NCBI GenBank assembly: GCA_003252535.1
Contig: QKDN01000048.1
Location: 62,001-126,000, forward strand
Length of the DNA stretch: 64,000 bases
Source: Campylobacterota bacterium
GTDB lineage: Bacteria > Campylobacterota > Campylobacteria > Campylobacterales > Sulfurovaceae
Direction of reading: 5' to 3'
Part shown: positions 47,144-55,822 of the stretch, piece after piece
Position numbering within the stretch: position 1 is the stretch's first letter
Layout: every line of letters starts with the position of its first letter
Notes under the pieces: model-generated
What the model was told of the DNA's origin: nothing
Database searches by the model: none
What the model saw: only the letters and a program-made list of their open reading frames with translations
Translations under genes and position numbers: made by a program

Positions 47144-47347
47144 CTTATGGAGTTATACCAATCCAATCTTAAGATATTATGAAATTCCGTTCTAAATCAG
47201 ACAAAATCTATCTGAATTAGAATTGATAGCCAAATTTAATCACTATCAAGTTAATAAGAGTTTTTCTTTGCTTAAAAAGAGTCTATAAGCTTCAAAGTGT
47301 ATACTTTCGTGACACTTTTCGGTGTGATTTTAATATTAGGTGATTAC

Positions 47348-48469
47348 TTGTCTGATGTCACTTTGGTACTATTAGGCGCGGGCAAAGCAACGAGATTCGA
47401 GATGCAGCCCAAAAAGCAGTGGCTTTACAGCGGTGACAGGCCGCTCTGGCTGCAGGTTGCTGACGAATTCAGAGCGCTTTATGATTTTGATGAGATCATC
47501 ATCGTCTCTTCCGCCGAAGAGACAGCCTATATGAGATTTTTCGCCGACTATACTTATGTCACCGGCGGGGAGAGCAGACAGGAATCGCTGAGCAATGCCC
47601 TTGCCGGGGTCTCCACATCGTATGTCCTCGTCAGCGATATCGCCCGCTGCTGTCTCGATCATGCTATGATCGGGCGTATCCTCGGGCACAGAGGAGAGGC
47701 CGATTCCGTTACACCTGCGCTAAGCGTGGTCGATACCGTCTATATGGACGCCCAGCCTGTCGACAGGAGCAAGATCAGACGGATACAGACGCCGCAGCTC
47801 AGCCGTACCGATATCCTCAAAAACGCTCTTTCGCAGGGGATGGAGTATACCGATGAGAGCAGTGCGATAGCTGCCGTCGGGGGGAGTGTGGTGTTCGTCG
47901 AAGGTTCCAATACCGCACACAAGCTCACTACCGTCGCTGACCTGGCCACGCTTCCGTGTATCAAACAGCCATCTTCGAGGACACTCACCGGTTTCGGGAT
48001 CGATATCCACCCCTTCGAGGAGGGGAAGCAGATGGTACTTTGCGGCGTGAAAATCGATTCGCCTTTCGGTTTCAAGGCCCACAGTGACGGCGATGTGGCG
48101 ATCCATGCCCTTATCGATGCGCTGCTGGGGGCTGCGGGGATGGGGGATATCGGCGAGCTCTTCCCGGATACCGACAGTGCCTATGCCGGTGCGGACTCGA
48201 CCGTGCTGCTCGAACAGGTGGTATCAAAGATCAATGCTTTCGGGTATACTATCGTCAATGTCGACCTCTCGATCATCGCGCAGACCCCCAGACTGTTGCA
48301 CTACAAAGAGCCTATGAGGCTCGCAATCGCCAGACTGCTCGGCATCCGGGCAAATTTTGTCAATATCAAAGCTACGACCGCAGAGAAGCTCGGCTTCCTT
48401 GGTAGAAAAGAGGGTGTTGCGGTCGAAGCAGTGGCGAATCTAACATATTTTGACTGGACAAAAAAATGA
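47348..48469 (+). CDS. ispDF: IspDF bifunctional isoprenoid synthesis enzyme
   Basis: Fusion of MEP cytidylyltransferase (IspD, about residues 1-210) and MEcPP synthase (IspF, about 220-373) of the non-mevalonate isoprenoid route. IspD part: LVLLGAGKATRF, KKQWL, DEIIIVSS, VSDIARCC, RRIQTPQ. IspF part: GFGIDIHPFEEGKQMVLCGV (metal-binding Asp/His), KAHSDGDVAIHALIDALLGA, DIGELFPDTD and ATTAEKLGFLGRKEGVAV. The TTG at 47348 is preferred as start: conserved sequence begins there and AGGTGA precedes it. The fusion is typical of Campylobacterota. Its stop overlaps the next ATG. Confidence 0.92.
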   Translation: MSDVTLVLLGAGKATRFEMQPKKQWLYSGDRPLWLQVADEFRALYDFDEIIIVSSAEETAYMRFFADYTYVTGGESRQESLSNALAGVSTSYVLVSDIARCCLDHAMIGRILGHRGEADSVTPALSVVDTVYMDAQPVDRSKIRRIQTPQLSRTDILKNALSQGMEYTDESSAIAAVGGSVVFVEGSNTAHKLTTVADLATLPCIKQPSSRTLTGFGIDIHPFEEGKQMVLCGVKIDSPFGFKAHSDGDVAIHALIDALLGAAGMGDIGELFPDTDSAYAGADSTVLLEQVVSKINAFGYTIVNVDLSIIAQTPRLLHYKEPMRLAIARLLGIRANFVNIKATTAEKLGFLGRKEGVAVEAVANLTYFDWTKK

Positions 48470-49347
48470 AAATCATTATAATAGAAAATGAACTCTACCT
48501 GGCCCAGAGCATCGCCGCAAAACTCGGCGAAGCGGGCTATGAGACAGAGATATACAGTTCGATCAAGGAGGCGATGAAGAGCAGCGGTGATGTCTATCTC
48601 CTCTCGACCAACCTCCCGGGGCAGAACTCGGCTCCGCTGATCACGCAGTTCAAGGACAAGATCATCATCCTGATGGTGAGCTACATCAACAACGATACCG
48701 TCAGCGAACCGCTCAGACTTGGCGCCAAGGACTATATCGTCAAGCCGTTCATGATCGAGGAGCTCCTCAGAAAGATCGAGCACTACAGGGAGTACCAGGA
48801 GCTGCGTCATCAGAATCTTCTCTACCAGGAGTACACCAACAACCTCCTCAAAGATATCAAGCTTGAGATCAATATGGAGAAGATCAATCCCCCGAGTATC
48901 ATCCTCACCAATTACCCACGTCTCGTCGACAAGATCATCTTCACCTACATCAAGACACACAAAAGAAGACTCACCTTCGTGCCGCTGACCTGCAAGGAGT
49001 GGAAGGAGAAGATACTCGCAGCCACACCGGGCTCGCTCCTCTATATTACGGACCTGCAGATACTCAAGAAAGCAGAGAGGGATATCCTCTTCTCTATGAT
49101 CGAATCGCAGCTCTTTATCATATCGACAACATCGGATATTAAAACTCCTTATGATACCATAGAGCTCAAAACAGAAAGCAAGCTCTATGACCAGAACGAA
49201 ATACTGACCATAGACGATTATGTCAAGTTCATAGTCAACAGTTTCCAGAACAAGTTCCCCGATACGGAGCTTTCGAAGAAACTGGGAATATCAAGAAAGA
49301 GCCTTTGGGAAAAAAGGAAAAAGTATGGCATCTTCAAGAAAAAATAG
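48466..49347 (+). CDS. HP1021-type atypical response regulator
   Basis: A 293-residue orphan regulator. The receiver domain starts MKIIIIENELYLAQSIAAKL, but the position of the phospho-acceptor Asp reads LLSTNLPG, so phosphorylation in the usual way is not possible. A central region (about 130-220) is unassigned. The C-terminus is a Fis-like helix-turn-helix (TELSKKLGISRKSLWEKRKK). HP1021/Cj1608 homologues control replication initiation (oriC, dnaA) and redox-linked genes and lie after ispDF in C. jejuni, as here. It overlaps ispDF (ATGA) and the Sat-like gene (23 bases). Confidence 0.82.
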   Translation: MKIIIIENELYLAQSIAAKLGEAGYETEIYSSIKEAMKSSGDVYLLSTNLPGQNSAPLITQFKDKIIILMVSYINNDTVSEPLRLGAKDYIVKPFMIEELLRKIEHYREYQELRHQNLLYQEYTNNLLKDIKLEINMEKINPPSIILTNYPRLVDKIIFTYIKTHKRRLTFVPLTCKEWKEKILAATPGSLLYITDLQILKKAERDILFSMIESQLFIISTTSDIKTPYDTIELKTESKLYDQNEILTIDDYVKFIVNSFQNKFPDTELSKKLGISRKSLWEKRKKYGIFKKK

Positions 49348-50515
49348 ACCGATCTATATAGATACCGAGGCGCTCTCCACCCTCGCGCTCGTACAGGCCG
49401 GGCTTCTCTCTCCGATCACGAAACTGATGGACGGGAAGACCGCCACGGAGGTAGACGCGACCAAGATATACAAGGGCTTCCCGTATCCGTTCGCGTTCGT
49501 CCTGGCCCCCAAGGGGAAGAGGAACAGGGAGATACTCGTCACTGCCGAAAGAGGCGAAGTGCTCGATCTTGTCGTCAAAGGGAAGAAAGTAGGGGAGATC
49601 ACCGTCGAAGAGACCTTCGAGATCGATCCCAAAGAGAGGCTTGTCAATATCTACGGCACGAGCGACCCGAACCACCCCGGTGTCAAGAATACCATAGCGA
49701 GGCTCGGAGATATCGCGGTGAGCGGTCCGTACCATGTGGATTATCCTCTCATCGAGGACAATATCAAGAGGATACGCAATATCGTGGAACATACCGGTGC
49801 AAGGAAAGTATCGGCGATGATGCTTGCTGCCAACCCTTTCAACAGGGCGCATGAGCGGATGATCCGTCAGACGCTCAACGGCAGCGACCTGCTGGTGATC
49901 TTCCTGCGCAAACCTTTCACCGAGGACGGTCTGCGCTACGATATCAGGTACAACGCTCTCAGCACGTTCATCGACAACTTCCTGCCGAAGAACAAAGTGC
50001 TCGTGGTCCCTTTCGAGAACACCTATATCTTCGCAGGGTACAACGAGCTGATCCTCGATGCGCTCCTGGCCAAGAACTATGGCTGTAATGAACTGGTAGT
50101 GGGCAAGAACCATGCAGGGCTGGGGCTCTACTACGACAAGAACAGGTTGAGCACCATATTCGACAGCAGCAGGCAGCTCGATATCACCATCACCACGGTG
50201 GATGAGTACCTCTACTGCAATGTGTGCAAGACCCTCGTGAGCATCCAGACCTGCCCGCACGGAGAGCACCACCATACGCACTACCACTCCGACTCGATCC
50301 TCAAACTGATCGAGAGTGGCCTGATGCCGCCGGCGATCCTGGTGCGCAAGGAGGTTTCTGCCAATATCCTTGCAGCACTCTTCCCAGACAGGTTTGAGCA
50401 TCTCCAGGAGATGTACCAGCTGCTGATGAGCGGCAGCGGTCTGCTGGAAAGACAGAGCGAAGAGCAGTTCTATATCAAGCTGGCCGAGCTCTACCAGACC
50501 ACATCACTGACCTAA
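49325..50515 (+). CDS. Sulfate adenylyltransferase-like protein with altered active-site motifs
   Basis: A 396-residue protein of the ATP sulfurylase (Sat) family. The fold-defining segments are present: MMLAANPFNRAHERMIRQTL, where active enzymes have Q-x-R-N-P-x-H-R-x-H-E, and VVGKNHAGLGLYYD, where active enzymes have G-R-D-H-A-G-V-G. The first Arg, the second His and the Arg-Asp pair are all replaced. A CNVCKTL ... CPHGEHHHTHYH segment is a likely zinc site. It may not make or use APS. It overlaps the HP1021-like gene by 23 bases; the same neighbour occurs in C. jejuni (Cj1609). Confidence 0.75.
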   Translation: MASSRKNRPIYIDTEALSTLALVQAGLLSPITKLMDGKTATEVDATKIYKGFPYPFAFVLAPKGKRNREILVTAERGEVLDLVVKGKKVGEITVEETFEIDPKERLVNIYGTSDPNHPGVKNTIARLGDIAVSGPYHVDYPLIEDNIKRIRNIVEHTGARKVSAMMLAANPFNRAHERMIRQTLNGSDLLVIFLRKPFTEDGLRYDIRYNALSTFIDNFLPKNKVLVVPFENTYIFAGYNELILDALLAKNYGCNELVVGKNHAGLGLYYDKNRLSTIFDSSRQLDITITTVDEYLYCNVCKTLVSIQTCPHGEHHHTHYHSDSILKLIESGLMPPAILVRKEVSANILAALFPDRFEHLQEMYQLLMSGSGLLERQSEEQFYIKLAELYQTTSLT

Positions 50516-50524
50516 GGAGTGCGC

Positions 50525-51019
50525 GTGAGCTTGCAAAGGGCTTTTTTGACATTTTTCGGAGCAGGGCTCAGCCCCAAAGCTCCCGGTACCGCCGGTACCC
50601 TGGCGGCGATGCCGGTGGGTCTGGCAGTGCTCTACTATATGGGGATAGAAAGCCTCTTTATGCTGACCCTGGCCGTCTCGATCATCGGTATATTCGAGAT
50701 CAACAAATACGAGAGGGCTACGGGAGAGCACGACCAAAGCGAGATCGTCATCGACGAAGCGGCGGGAGTATGGATCACGATGATGGTAGCCTACCCCACG
50801 GTGAATCAATCGGGGATAGAGTATGCCCAGATCATCGGTATCGTGCTGAGCTTTGCTACATTCAGGCTTTTCGATATCTGGAAACCTTCGACGATCGGCT
50901 GGATCGACCGCAAGGCCAAAGGGGGACTCGGGGTCATGGGCGACGATATCGTCGCGGGTTTCGCCGGAGGGTTCCTGACCATTGTCATCCTCAAAGCTCT
51001 CGAGCGGTTCCCGGGATAA
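50525..51019 (+). CDS. pgpA: Phosphatidylglycerophosphatase A
   Basis: Dephosphorylates phosphatidylglycerol phosphate at the inner membrane. The 164-residue protein has the PgpA motifs FFGAGLSPKAPGTAGTLAAM, VIDEAAGVWITM and GWIDRKAKGGLGVMGDDIVA and about four helices. The GTG at 50525 is chosen because AAGGAG lies five bases upstream; a second GTG two codons earlier would overlap that site. It follows the Sat-like gene by nine bases and precedes a lipid-kinase-like gene by three, suggesting a small lipid operon. Confidence 0.9.
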   Translation: MSLQRAFLTFFGAGLSPKAPGTAGTLAAMPVGLAVLYYMGIESLFMLTLAVSIIGIFEINKYERATGEHDQSEIVIDEAAGVWITMMVAYPTVNQSGIEYAQIIGIVLSFATFRLFDIWKPSTIGWIDRKAKGGLGVMGDDIVAGFAGGFLTIVILKALERFPG

Positions 51020-51022
51020 ACG

Positions 51023-51706
51023 ATGGGGATAAAGAAACTAGCATCGATCGGCAGGGCTATAGAGTATCCCGGCCTGGATATAGTGAATCTCGGATTCTCT
51101 GAGATACAGCAGCTGGGTAAGTATGATGCGGTGATCATCTCCGGCGGCGACGGTCTGATACGCCGTGTCGTGCGCGCGCTCAATACGGTGGAGAAGAAGC
51201 CGCTTCTGATCCTCAATCCCACCGGATCGTTCAATGTCGTCGCCAAAGCCCACCGTACGCCGCGCATCGAACGAGTACTTGAGAAGATCGCAGCCGACAT
51301 GGAACTCAGAGAAAAAGAGATCCCCTACTACAGACTGGGGAACGATATCTTCGTCTTCTCAGCTGGCAATATGGGTGACCTGCACCATATATTCCTCTCA
51401 GAAAGCCTGCGTTTCGGATGGCTGCGGCAGGGTTCACTGAAGTATTTCCTCGCTGTTCTCTTCCTGCTGCCGATGCACCTCTTCCTGACCCCTTTCATGC
51501 TGCTCAGCGACAAACGTTTCTTCATCTTTACCCCTTTCGGTTTTCCGTCGAAGTTCGGTACGTTCTTCGGCAGGATCGACAGCAGGGTGGTGTTCGATCT
51601 TCAGAACAGTTACAATATCCTCGAGCTTGACGGCGATATCGTCGTGATAGAAGAGAGTGTGATAGAGATAGAGCCCAAAGGGAAGGTGACGATAGTCGTC
51701 GGATAA
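51023..51706 (+). CDS. Diacylglycerol kinase-like protein, short and divergent
   Basis: A 227-residue protein related to the lipid-kinase catalytic domain (DAGK/YegS/sphingosine kinase). AVIISGGDGLIRRVVRALN corresponds to the nucleotide loop G-G-D-G-T and LLILNPTGSFNVVAKAHR to the P-x-G-T-x-N-D-x-A loop; both lack the usual Thr and Asp. The protein is shorter than a normal kinase (about 300) and has a hydrophobic segment around residues 140-165. It follows pgpA directly. It may be a degenerate or specialised lipid kinase or a binding protein. Confidence 0.65.
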   Translation: MGIKKLASIGRAIEYPGLDIVNLGFSEIQQLGKYDAVIISGGDGLIRRVVRALNTVEKKPLLILNPTGSFNVVAKAHRTPRIERVLEKIAADMELREKEIPYYRLGNDIFVFSAGNMGDLHHIFLSESLRFGWLRQGSLKYFLAVLFLLPMHLFLTPFMLLSDKRFFIFTPFGFPSKFGTFFGRIDSRVVFDLQNSYNILELDGDIVVIEESVIEIEPKGKVTIVVG

Positions 51707-51777: not shown

Positions 51778-52917
51778 ATGGACAAGTTTACCGAAACGAC
51801 GACCACGAGCTACGGTGCCAATATCGGCAACTCCATCAAGGGAATGGGGATAGGGGCCTTTCTGATCATCTCCTCGATCTCTTTGCTATGGTGGAACGAG
51901 GGTAATACAGTAGCCCAGGCAAGCGCCTTGAGCGAAATGGAGGCCAATACGATCACGCTCAGCGGTACGAACTACGATGCAGCAAGCGAAGGGAAGCCAG
52001 TCCTCATCCAAGGGGATATCAAGCCCAACAAACAGCTCAGTGATCCACTGTTCGGAGTTATTTCTGACGGACTGCTGCTCAAGAGAGATGCACAGATGTA
52101 CCAGTGGAATGAAGAGGAGCATACCCAAACCGACAATACAGGCGGTTCGACGACAACGACAACCACCTACAGCTATAACAAAAAGTGGGCTTCCACCCCG
52201 ATAGACTCATCAAGGTTCAAACACCCAGAAGGGCATCAGAACCCGCAGATGACTTACCAGTCACAGAAGTTCGGCACCGATGCAACTCTGGGAGATTATG
52301 CGGTGGGGCAGAATATGCTCAGTTCGCTCGATGCGAAATCACCGATCGATCTCAGCAAACTGCCGCAATATATGAACGGGTTCAAGAACTATAATACCTA
52401 CTATTATTCGGGCTACAATATCAGCTATCCGAAAATCGGGGATATGAAAATAAGCTATTCGTTCGAACCTGTAGGGAAGTTTACAGTAGCGGCGCTCTCG
52501 CAGAATAAAGAGCTCATAGCCTACAGTGCAAGCAACGGCAGAAGCCTCGCGTTCGTCAAAAACGGAACGATGACAGCGGCACAGCTCTTCAAGGCCGAGC
52601 AGGATGCCAATGCGATGATGGCGTGGTTCATTCGGGTGATCGGTCTTGTGATCATGTATATCGGTTTTACGCTGTTGATGGGAGTCCTGCCGACACTTGC
52701 GAGAATCATTCCGTTCCTCGGCTCGCTCATCGGCGGTGTCACGGGTCTGATCGCCGCGGTGCTCACACTGGTCGTCGGGTCGCTTGTGATCGCTATCGCA
52801 TGGTTCGCTTCCCGGCCGATGCTCTCTGTAGCGCTTATCGCAGGGGGGATCGTACTGGCTGTGATCCTTGGCAAAGCAGCCAAAAGAAAAGCTCCTTCAC
52901 TTACAGAAGAGCAGTAG
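51778..52917 (+). CDS. TMEM43 (LUMA) family membrane protein
   Basis: A 379-residue membrane protein. One N-terminal helix (IGAFLIISSISLLWWNEGNT, with the family's W-W-N-E-G-x-x-V), a large extracytoplasmic domain (about 50-280) and three C-terminal helices (WFIRVIGLVIMYIGFTLLMG, LIGGVTGLIAAVLTLVVGSL, SVALIAGGIVLAVILG) give the TMEM43 layout. GGAGAAAA precedes the ATG. Bacterial members are scattered and of unknown function; a membrane stress or lipid-domain role has been suggested for the family. It is not in an obvious operon. Confidence 0.82.
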   Translation: MDKFTETTTTSYGANIGNSIKGMGIGAFLIISSISLLWWNEGNTVAQASALSEMEANTITLSGTNYDAASEGKPVLIQGDIKPNKQLSDPLFGVISDGLLLKRDAQMYQWNEEEHTQTDNTGGSTTTTTTYSYNKKWASTPIDSSRFKHPEGHQNPQMTYQSQKFGTDATLGDYAVGQNMLSSLDAKSPIDLSKLPQYMNGFKNYNTYYYSGYNISYPKIGDMKISYSFEPVGKFTVAALSQNKELIAYSASNGRSLAFVKNGTMTAAQLFKAEQDANAMMAWFIRVIGLVIMYIGFTLLMGVLPTLARIIPFLGSLIGGVTGLIAAVLTLVVGSLVIAIAWFASRPMLSVALIAGGIVLAVILGKAAKRKAPSLTEEQ

Positions 52918-54052: not shown

Positions 54053-55822
54053 CTAAAAACATTGTTTAAATAATTTACTTTCACAAGACTCATCAGATAA
54101 TTTAAGACATATCTCTTCATCTGTCAAAGCAAAAGTTTCTTGTAATTGATTGATTTCAGATTCAATTGTTGTGATAATGTATTGAAGATTATACTCCTCA
54201 ACCATATTTCGGATAAACTTAATATAGTTTTCTTTTTTCCTAATATCCAGTGAGTCCAAAACACCATCGTGAAACGCAAATCTATAAAATGATTTATTAT
54301 TGTAATATTCCAAAAGCGAAACATCAAAAGCAGCACATAAGATTTTTTTATAAGTATTTCCACTGGCTAAATCAGATGCTCCCATATCTTCTTTTTTTTG
54401 ATATTCTGCTTCAAATTCAACATTATTTTCTTTATTTGTCCTAACAGATAGAACCGCCGGAGTATTTAAAATCTTAGTCGTAAATTGATTAAACAACTTT
54501 CGTATATGCTTATGGTTTTGCTTACTAATCGCCTGATTAAGCTCACTCACCTTTTGAATTATTTTTGAAGAATAATCATTCAAGTCATCTTGTAATCGAG
54601 CCATTTTGTTTATATTATGAAGTTTATTTTCAAAGATAATAATATCTGCTTCAACTTTGGAAAGTTCCTTCTGATACTTTTTAAACTTATCGTATGAGTC
54701 TTTTTCTGTCAGCTCCATTATCATACCTGACTTTTGTTCTTCAAGGCTTTTTAATATCCCGCTTATCTCTTCGCTTTCTGCTTTCAGAGCCTCTAAGTTT
54801 TCTTGTAAAAACTGGTTTCGTTCAAGAGTTATACTTTTATTGAACTGAATGACTTTTTCAAATTCTGCCAAAAGAACATCAGGGAAAAAGAGTTCAACCT
54901 CTTTGTATATTGCATTGATTTCATCCAAATTAATGCTATCAATTTCTACACTCAATGCCTGTTCAATTTTAGCTATTTCGTATTTTACGGAGTAGTGTTG
55001 GGTATTTGCTATCTTGATTTTATTTTCTATTTCATCAACAAGTATATTCTTCTGCTCATTATCTTGTTGATAGAAGTTAAAAACATCAATCTTGGAAGAT
55101 ATCTCTTCCTGTTCTTCTTTTTTTATATCAATGATACCTCGTATCTTATCTTCGTCATTTTGGGATACTTTGTTTTCACTCTCAAGTATTTGGATTTTAC
55201 TTGCCAAGTCATTATACTGTTCTTCATATTCAAGTTTTTGCCTAATCATCTCTCCATCAAACCCAAGCAAATCAAAGACCATCGGTTTCCAATCTTTATG
55301 TAGCCCTTGAAATTTATTCAATTTAAATACATCAACATAATCTTCCTGATGTCTCATAAAATAGTTAAGTGATTTACGATACTCCCAGTTTGGCAAAATG
55401 TCAAATGCCAAATATTCATTCAGTTTCTTCTTGGCCTTTTCAAGCGGTAGCTCTGAATCATCCCACTCCTGTATATCTGTGATAAAGCCTACCATTTTGG
55501 ATGTATTTACTTTGAACGATATTTTAGTATTGTTTTGAACAGCTCTTTTAATAACTAAAAATTTTCCGTCATTGAGCTCAATCTCCGCAAAAAAAACATA
55601 TTCTGAAAAAGTATCGTTCTTTGTTAAAAAATATCTTTTCTTATTATTAATTCCTTTCAATAATAAAAAATCAATGACCTTAAGTAAAAGAGATTTTCCT
55701 AAGTTGTGCGTGTCCATTTCTAAATCTTCACGATTAGAAATACTCCCGATGATGACATTAAGTCCGCTTGAAAACTCGACATTGTGAAATGGTGCATTTG
55801 AATATACCTTACACAGTTTCAT
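54053..55822 (-). CDS. SMC-like ATPase of an ABC-three-component system (DUF2326)
   Basis: A 589-residue ABC/SMC-type ATPase. The N-terminus has a nucleotide head, LNVIIGSISNREDLEMDTHN followed by LGKSLLLKVIDFLL, a Walker A of the form N-x-G-K-S. The middle (about 195-450) is a long Glu/Lys/Gln-rich coiled coil. The C-terminal head (AFHDGVLDSLDIRKKENYIK) has the aspartate-rich end seen in DUF2326 proteins. Last gene of a three-gene unit, overlapping the small middle gene by 14 bases. Proposed role: sensing DNA or nucleoprotein and licensing the nuclease partner. Strongly AT-rich against the flanks. Confidence 0.85.
   Translation of the reverse strand: MKLCKVYSNAPFHNVEFSSGLNVIIGSISNREDLEMDTHNLGKSLLLKVIDFLLLKGINNKKRYFLTKNDTFSEYVFFAEIELNDGKFLVIKRAVQNNTKISFKVNTSKMVGFITDIQEWDDSELPLEKAKKKLNEYLAFDILPNWEYRKSLNYFMRHQEDYVDVFKLNKFQGLHKDWKPMVFDLLGFDGEMIRQKLEYEEQYNDLASKIQILESENKVSQNDEDKIRGIIDIKKEEQEEISSKIDVFNFYQQDNEQKNILVDEIENKIKIANTQHYSVKYEIAKIEQALSVEIDSINLDEINAIYKEVELFFPDVLLAEFEKVIQFNKSITLERNQFLQENLEALKAESEEISGILKSLEEQKSGMIMELTEKDSYDKFKKYQKELSKVEADIIIFENKLHNINKMARLQDDLNDYSSKIIQKVSELNQAISKQNHKHIRKLFNQFTTKILNTPAVLSVRTNKENNVEFEAEYQKKEDMGASDLASGNTYKKILCAAFDVSLLEYYNNKSFYRFAFHDGVLDSLDIRKKENYIKFIRNMVEEYNLQYIITTIESEINQLQETFALTDEEICLKLSDESCESKLFKQCF

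Follow-up and report, generated by a model that had tools for sequence, protein, structure and literature searches.

The gene at positions 49325–50515 of the analysed window (64,000 nucleotides of contig QKDN01000048.1 from a Campylobacterota bacterium) encodes a conserved paralogue of ATP sulfurylase (Sat) that is commonly called 'sat' and is very probably not a sulfurylase. We hold it to be highly likely that this Sat-like protein does not work as an ATP sulfurylase. The initial annotation had proposed an inactive or repurposed ATP sulfurylase flanked by an HP1021-like regulator (48466–49347) and PgpA (50519–51019). The neighbours are as described, and the proposal fits our findings: the Q and R of the QxRNPxHRxHE motif occur in 0 of 100 relatives, and no second Sat, CysH/CysD, CysC or AprA was found in the genome. 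The features discussed below are as follows.

47297–48469, + strand: IspDF, first gene of the conserved cluster (NF006899, 471.2 bits, cut-off 417)
48466–49347, + strand: CemR/HP1021-type response regulator (family search and alignment), its 3' end overlapping the start of the Sat-like gene by 23 nt
49325–50515, + strand: Sat-like protein of 396 aa, member of a Campylobacterota family (ORF, PF01747 and PUA_2 matches, clade support 100/100, model)
49823–49855, + strand: degenerate QxRNPxHRxHE motif, reading LAANPFNRAHE, residues 167–177 (column counts in 100 relatives)
50102–50125, + strand: degenerate GRDHAGVG motif, reading GKNHAGLG, residues 260–267 (R to K, D to N)
50216–50287, + strand: CxxC-x8-CPHGxHHHxxY plus one residue; the core is common to many canonical Sats, the G and the His run are family-specific
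50381–50512, + strand: C-terminal tail, residues 353–396 (44 residues), past the stretch aligned to the Thermus Sat 1v47 (model range ends at 352)
50519–51019, + strand: PgpA, phosphatidylglycerophosphatase A (PF04608, 132.7 bits)

Fold and motifs of the Sat-like protein

Homology of the Sat-like protein, whose ORF starts with ATG, to sulfurylases is well above chance. The Pfam domains ATP-sulfurylase (PF01747) and PUA_2, the PUA-like domain of sulfurylases, scored 184.6 bits (cut-off 24.3) and 55.8 bits (cut-off 27), respectively, and the closest solved Sat by sequence is 1v47 (2.7e-29). The best structural matches of an AlphaFold model made with 40 family members as input (mean pLDDT 89.4, pTM 0.86) were true sulfurylases, namely 1v47 (Z 32.2, 2.4 Å, 329 residues), 8a8g and 8a8d_B (both Z 31.5) and, with lower scores, the remaining Sats down to 3cr8 (Z 24.1); the Foldseek ranking agrees with Sats as the nearest structures. 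Beyond the Sats there is a gap in Z, and the structural relatives ranking next are PPAT, pantothenate synthetase (both at about 11) and NMNAT. The core domain of these three enzymes aligns at Z of about 11 with 10–15% identity, and the match is confined to the central part of the model, starting no earlier than about residue 142. The predicted model contains the nucleotidyltransferase core fold of the HxxH superfamily. Judged by this model, the sulfurylase fold of the protein is clear, and membership of the enzyme class is the question.

All three NCBIfam sulfurylase models scored the protein below their cut-offs (182.4 against 387, 119.9 against 322.95 and 75.8 against 669). With the NCBI Sat subfamily model (cut-off 387), the best of 40 Sat-like family members reached an E-value of 4.8e-59, and three canonical Campylobacterota Sats scored 422, 397 and 385.4, the last of which misses. 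The TIGR00339 cut-off was missed by two of the three canonical Campylobacterota Sats tested and also by the Thermus Sat. Because some canonical Sats narrowly miss too, the shortfall of the Sat-like protein is weak evidence when taken alone.

Both motifs and the Cys/His stretch are present as first read, at residues 167–177, 260–267 and 310–321. In LAANPFNRAHE, Q is replaced by L, R by A and the first His by N, and the second His (H176) and the Glu (E177) are retained. The description of the protein as lacking catalytic residues was therefore right for the Q, the R, the first His and the Arg of GRDHAG and went too far for H176 and E177. The Q and R of QxR hold sulfate, by the residue roles known from Sat structures, and the motif residues are Q195, R197, H201, H204 and R290 in yeast Sat numbering.

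Q and R were absent in all 100 full-length Sat-like members compared. The Asn of QxRN is variable (N 46, K 29, D 14), as is the first His of HxxH (H/N/T in 68/29/3), and the second His and the Arg preceding it are each kept in 97 members and the following Glu in 100. At the Arg position of GRDHAG, R was found in 7 members, Q in 51 and K in 32. Sixty-six of the 100 members have an intact HxxH; the window protein itself has NxxH, which is common to most rows of its family-level group and recurs in some rows of another group (f3). The five canonical Campylobacterota Sats carry Q, R, N, H, H, E and R at the motif positions throughout, and in this alignment the motif loop of the Sat-like rows is longer than theirs by one residue. 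From these columns, we read the family as having lost the sulfate side of the active site and as having partly retained the nucleotide side. Conservation is similar in the motif helix (residues 169–180, mean entropy 0.95) and in the zinc motif (residues 301–312, 0.88).

The Cys/His stretch consists of CNVC (residues 298–301, nt 50216–50227) and CPHGEHHHTHYH (residues 310–321, nt 50252–50287), and by sequence carries the signature of the zinc-type Sat domain III, i.e. CxxC with a downstream C and H. C298, C301, C310, P311, H312, G313 and H315 do not vary among the 100 members, and CxxC...CPHGxHHHxxY is whole in 95. The view that this stretch adds a metal site had to be given up: ten canonical or canonical-like Sats encoded on plasmids outside Campylobacterota were compared, and CxxC...CPH occurs in six of them (Bacillus, Priestia, Deinococcus, Allomeiothermus, Sulfobacillus and Phaeobacter), two of which have CPHxxxHH, so that only part of the His run is extra. 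Of the others, the Thermus Sat has CxxC...CPE, and CxxC was not matched in those of Acaryochloris, Sinorhizobium and Paracoccus. The excerpted text on the Methanothermococcus Sat describes a zinc-binding domain within domain III that occurs in many thermophiles, and a dimer interface formed mainly by domain III, as in Thermus (PMC10322725). The Cys/His core of the family is inherited, and the Gly, the fuller His run and the tail are family-specific. The C-terminal tail is kept in the family (F382, Y383, Q391), and its residues 372–391 are gaps in the five canonical Campylobacterota Sats.

In summary of these comparisons, the family shares with Sat (EC 2.7.7.4; Thermus 1v47, Methanothermococcus 8a8d) the three-domain fold, the HE of HxxHE and CxxC...C...H, and differs in the missing Q and R of QxR (100 of 100), the rare R of GRDHAG (7), the extra loop residue, the CPHGxHHH motif, the extra C-terminal tail and a clade of its own. 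Sulfurylase-like domains without activity are on record in the APS kinases of Thiobacillus denitrificans (3cr8) and Entamoeba, as far as the available part of that report goes (PMC13213808). Those domains are fused to APS kinase, whereas the Sat-like protein stands alone, has no APS kinase domain and is encoded in a genome without a PF01583 match. A non-catalytic sulfurylase fold is thus not new in kind; a stand-alone, phylum-wide one was not met in the literature searched.

Distribution, phylogeny and selection of the family

PF01747 was matched in 238 of 298 Campylobacterota genomes. A search with the family alignment in 397 Campylobacterota genomes gave a match at E ≤ 1e-20 in 306, and the Sat-like family was present in 305 of the 397, each with a best match of 1.4e-101 or better; the exception among the 306 (G122) has a canonical Sat only (5.9e-48). 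No match was obtained by this search in 91 of the 397 genomes. Twenty of these are listed, of which 13 belong to one genus (g19) of family f2 and the rest to other f2 genera, f5, f6 (two genomes) and, with one genome (G387), to the window's own family. From the examined loci, 106 distinct Sat-family frames were extracted, 101 Sat-like and five canonical.

The 100-row sample behind the motif counts is non-random and combines 19 Sulfurovum-centred loci, the PF01747 loci with the best scores and some with the lowest, and 40 genus-covering regions. Left out before counting were L020, whose frame is cut by a contig end, and L071, L075, L109 and L110, which are the frames of L006, L014, L021 and L022, respectively; the canonical L021–L025 were counted apart. 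The substitutions had been treated as special to one organism, a view that is not supported: they are the rule in the sampled Campylobacterota and not a peculiarity of the window's genome. The initial annotation had named as contrary evidence that such substitutions are normal in active epsilon-type enzymes; they are indeed normal in the epsilon family, but we found no evidence of a member that is active as a sulfurylase.

In a 55-row maximum-likelihood tree, all 40 Sat-like rows lie on one side of a branch with 100/100 support and a long stem. The five canonical Campylobacterota Sats form a separate 100/100 group among the canonical Sats, and with midpoint rooting the earliest branch on the canonical side of the tree is a C-terminal fragment from a Phaeobacter plasmid. 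This tree sets the family apart from the canonical Sats with full support; Cj1609 is assigned to the family by gene order only, ispDF being Cj1607 with Cj1608 and Cj1609 downstream of it in the portion of the C. jejuni study at hand (PMC4435418). From this order we infer that Cj1609 is the C. jejuni member of the family, degenerate motif included.

A plasmid scan returned 26 records, of which 15 are known by annotation alone and 11 were examined by sequence: one Sulfurovum Sat-like member, nine canonical or near-canonical Sats and one frame-broken Phaeobacter sequence. The Sulfurovum member is on a Sulfurovum mangrovi 'plasmid' (a 395-kb linear record; L113, 106–3945), where ispDF, regulator, sat and pgpA are present; its annotated sat stops short of the homologous stretch, and the reading carries on in another frame. 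The top-scoring plasmid match behind it is the Sat relative of Phaeobacter inhibens M650 (L114, 1492–2735), which has ITGANPLHR without QxR together with GRDHAGIG and is split over two frames. A scan of IMG/VR with the family alignment for phage-borne copies gave 15 pattern matches and 0 relatives. Two Sat-like frames of 613 and 624 aa (L064, 406–2247; L067, 1360–3234) are about 200 aa longer on the N side, and Pfam found no match other than PF01747 in them.

The Sat-like family is under strong purifying selection. Nei-Gojobori dN/dS of the gene had a median of 0.026 in 31 of the 40 closest pairs, where pairs share sequences, 27 of the 31 come from one genus-level group and the other four have values of 0.048–0.085. 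No inner stops were seen among the matches listed in the family-alignment search. In the accessible part of a TraDIS study, Cj1609 counts as core in four species but as essential in just two of them, C. jejuni and C. coli (PMC10077673); sat A290V appears among the variants in excerpts of a C. coli aerotolerance study (PMC5366326). A decaying gene without function would account for the loss of canonical residues and for nothing further. It is contradicted by the median dN/dS of 0.026, the invariant motifs, the reported essentiality and the intact frames among the matches listed, and we give it next to no credence.

Sulfate activation and the genomic context

PF01747 is matched once in the window's genome, which is 99.95% complete, so that the search for a second, canonical sat ended without one. 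PF01507 (CysH/CysD) and PF01583 (CysC) had no match in this genome, and were matched in 14 of 14 and 11 of 14 control genomes, respectively. The AprA hits in the genome scored only 24.4 and 22.8 bits, where the cut-off is 641.75. The genome does encode CysK (424 bits; cut-off 344), which makes sulfide assimilation the likelier route to cysteine. Checked through SoxB alone, neither the premise of a presumed sulfur oxidiser nor SoxB-dependent thiosulfate oxidation was confirmed for this genome; the check concerns a protein for which the best score was 118 bits against a cut-off of 550 (G000:C14:36873-38114, L132) and for which the control genomes were all below the cut-off as well.

In a panel of 62 genomes chosen by us, 61 with the Sat-like protein plus G122, PF01507 was found at E ≤ 0.001 in 44, over the family cut-off in 38 and with at least 80 bits in 25 genomes; the respective numbers for PF01583 were 33, 30 and 23. 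At the threshold of at least 80 bits, 33 panel genomes have PF01507, PF01583 or both and 29 have neither, with many weaker matches, and 11 have no match to either family at E ≤ 0.001. Counted by the family cut-offs instead of 80 bits, a smaller share of the panel lacks partner genes. Because the Sat-like protein is present in panel genomes with and without these families, it does not track sulfate assimilation. At two of the five canonical Campylobacterota Sat loci (L109, L110), which were read in context, an APS kinase gene lies immediately upstream, as expected of a true sulfurylase.

These data bear on the annotated function, by which the protein would be a genuine ATP sulfurylase whose active site is unusual; we consider this improbable. 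The retained fold and domain order speak for it, as do the names in use: the RefSeq-derived plasmid record names a sulfate adenylyltransferase, and papers, to the extent of the text available, treat the gene as Sat. The Phaeobacter combination of ITGANPLHR with GRDHAG shows that loops without QxR exist beyond the Sat-like family, but this counterexample has a broken frame. Several observations stand against a working sulfurylase: Q or R is kept in 0 of 100 members; no APS-using or APS-making partner was found in the window's genome or, with a threshold of 80 bits, in 29 of the 61 panel genomes with the Sat-like protein; and the two canonical Campylobacterota Sats read in context are separate genes beside APS kinase.

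In published reconstructions of these bacteria, a gene named sat stands for sulfate activation. According to the parts of the papers available to us, a 'Sat-type ATPS' without an AprBA partner was assigned to assimilation in Sulfurimonas (PMC4584964), the lone sat of the Zeitz epsilonproteobacterium was called conspicuous (PMC4674564), and sat was counted as sulfate activation in Frasassi Sulfurovum bins (PMC4288042) and in Nautilia (PMC10092268). The records of Zeitz Epsilonproteobacterium (L019) and of SulCav PC08-66, AS07-7 and FS06-10 (L006, L015, L017), whose names match two of these papers, have the degenerate motif, and the sat genes of Sulfurimonas and Nautilia probably belong to the Sat-like family too. 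In the open-licence literature, as far as its accessible text extends, no statement was found that the motif is degenerate, and Sat is the identity given wherever the gene is named. Two papers note the puzzle of a sat without partner genes, which disappears if the protein is no sulfurylase.

Gene neighbourhood and possible functions

The gene order in the window, a conserved housekeeping cluster, is ispDF, CemR/HP1021-type regulator, Sat-like gene and pgpA. In 97 of 100 loci the Sat-like gene is preceded by a CemR gene, and in 91 of these the CemR end and the estimated start of the Sat-like gene are at most 80 nt apart; ispDF is upstream in 47 of the 50 loci that extend far enough, and pgpA is downstream in 84 of 99. 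Neighbours were detected by phmmer with the window's proteins as queries, so some may have been missed. At two loci from different f6 genera (L082, L083) the Sat-like gene is away from CemR, with neighbours that are presumably a lipoprotein-like ORF and, divergently, a QueH-like ORF. The neighbours at the three loci without an adjacent CemR (L082, L083, L084) gave no functional hint.

CemR was present in 17 of 18 genomes that were mostly chosen for a lost or moved Sat-like gene and is therefore independent of the latter. Twelve of the 18 have CemR and no Sat, one has CemR and a canonical Sat only, three (G134, G044, G248) have CemR and the Sat-like gene apart, and G007 alone lacks both. CemR as an obligate partner of the Sat-like protein was weakened as a candidate by its presence in 13 of 14 tested genomes without the Sat-like gene.

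Our leading explanation, put forward tentatively and at a little less than an even chance, is that the Sat-like protein is a nucleotide-binding pseudoenzyme. An adenine nucleotide would be bound at the remaining HxxHE pocket without sulfate activation, the protein would dimerise through the zinc-type domain III with CPHGxHHH and the new tail, and the nucleotide-bound or dimeric state would scaffold or regulate a partner, with the co-translated CemR as the first candidate. The explanation builds on the observed fold, the loss of Q and R, the kept HE, the conserved zinc-type motif, the tail, the constraint on the gene and its cluster. It is opposed by the intact HxxH in 66 of 100 members and weakened by the motif helix being as conserved as the zinc motif, which fits catalysis on another substrate at least as well.

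A special case compatible with the pseudoenzyme explanation, namely that the protein serves chiefly as a partner or sensor subunit for the atypical regulator CemR, seems unlikely, if a shade less so than sulfurylase activity. The close linkage (CemR upstream at 97 of the 100 loci, at most 80 nt away at 91 of these 97, and overlapping by 23 nt in the window) agrees with it, as does the joint up-regulation of Cj1607 to Cj1609 by epinephrine in C. jejuni, reported in the portion of that study at hand (PMC4435418). However, 12 of the 18 genomes keep CemR without any Sat and one keeps it with a canonical Sat only, and three keep both genes apart. A C. jejuni CemR deletion strain exists (PMC11334517), and Cj1609 is reported as essential (PMC10077673), both according to excerpts of the respective papers. 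Because CemR is deletable in C. jejuni while Cj1609 is called essential, the Sat-like protein cannot serve CemR alone. The available text of the CemR paper (PMC11334517) was found to contain no mention of Cj1609 or sulfate adenylyltransferase.

Nearly as likely as the pseudoenzyme is a working nucleotidyltransferase, with AMP or another nucleotide as the group transferred and a non-sulfate acceptor for which the lost Q and R make room; to this possibility we assign about one chance in three. The second His (97 of 100), the Glu (100 of 100) and the preceding Arg (97 of 100) are kept in a conserved motif helix, and H, T or N may be tolerated at the first His position; PPAT has T at the position of the first His of HxxH. 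The nearest structures past the Sats are PPAT, pantothenate synthetase and NMNAT, and the neighbours IspDF and PgpA handle nucleotide- and phosphate-linked lipid chemistry, although linkage alone proves nothing. Such an enzyme is harder to reconcile with the replacement of the first His in 32 and the second His in 3 of 100 members and with the variable Asn of QxRN (N 46, K 29, D 14), and the context suggests no acceptor. Our computation did not separate it from the pseudoenzyme.

We tentatively propose that the family may act in the core metabolism of Campylobacterota as a nucleotidyltransferase or nucleotide-sensing regulator not described so far, co-translated with the energy regulator CemR and essential in both C. 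jejuni and C. coli; we place the likelihood of this between those of the pseudoenzyme and the nucleotidyltransferase. If true, the sulfurylase fold would carry a new activity, and the name 'sat' would conceal a target that is mostly restricted to the phylum. Should the essentiality in C. jejuni that TraDIS points to hold, the real function of the gene would be a directly testable question in a major pathogen group.

Directly behind pgpA, the window encodes a 227-aa ORF with a partial DAGK_cat match (51023–51706, + strand), which was detected in the window's genome only, although many of the compared loci end close behind pgpA. The next ORF noted is a 379-aa protein (51778–52917, + strand) that matches TMEM43 (PF07787, 229.6 bits), the name of a eukaryotic membrane protein. 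A 589-aa ORF on the – strand (54053–55822) resembles, from the impression of its sequence, an SMC/RecN-type ATPase.
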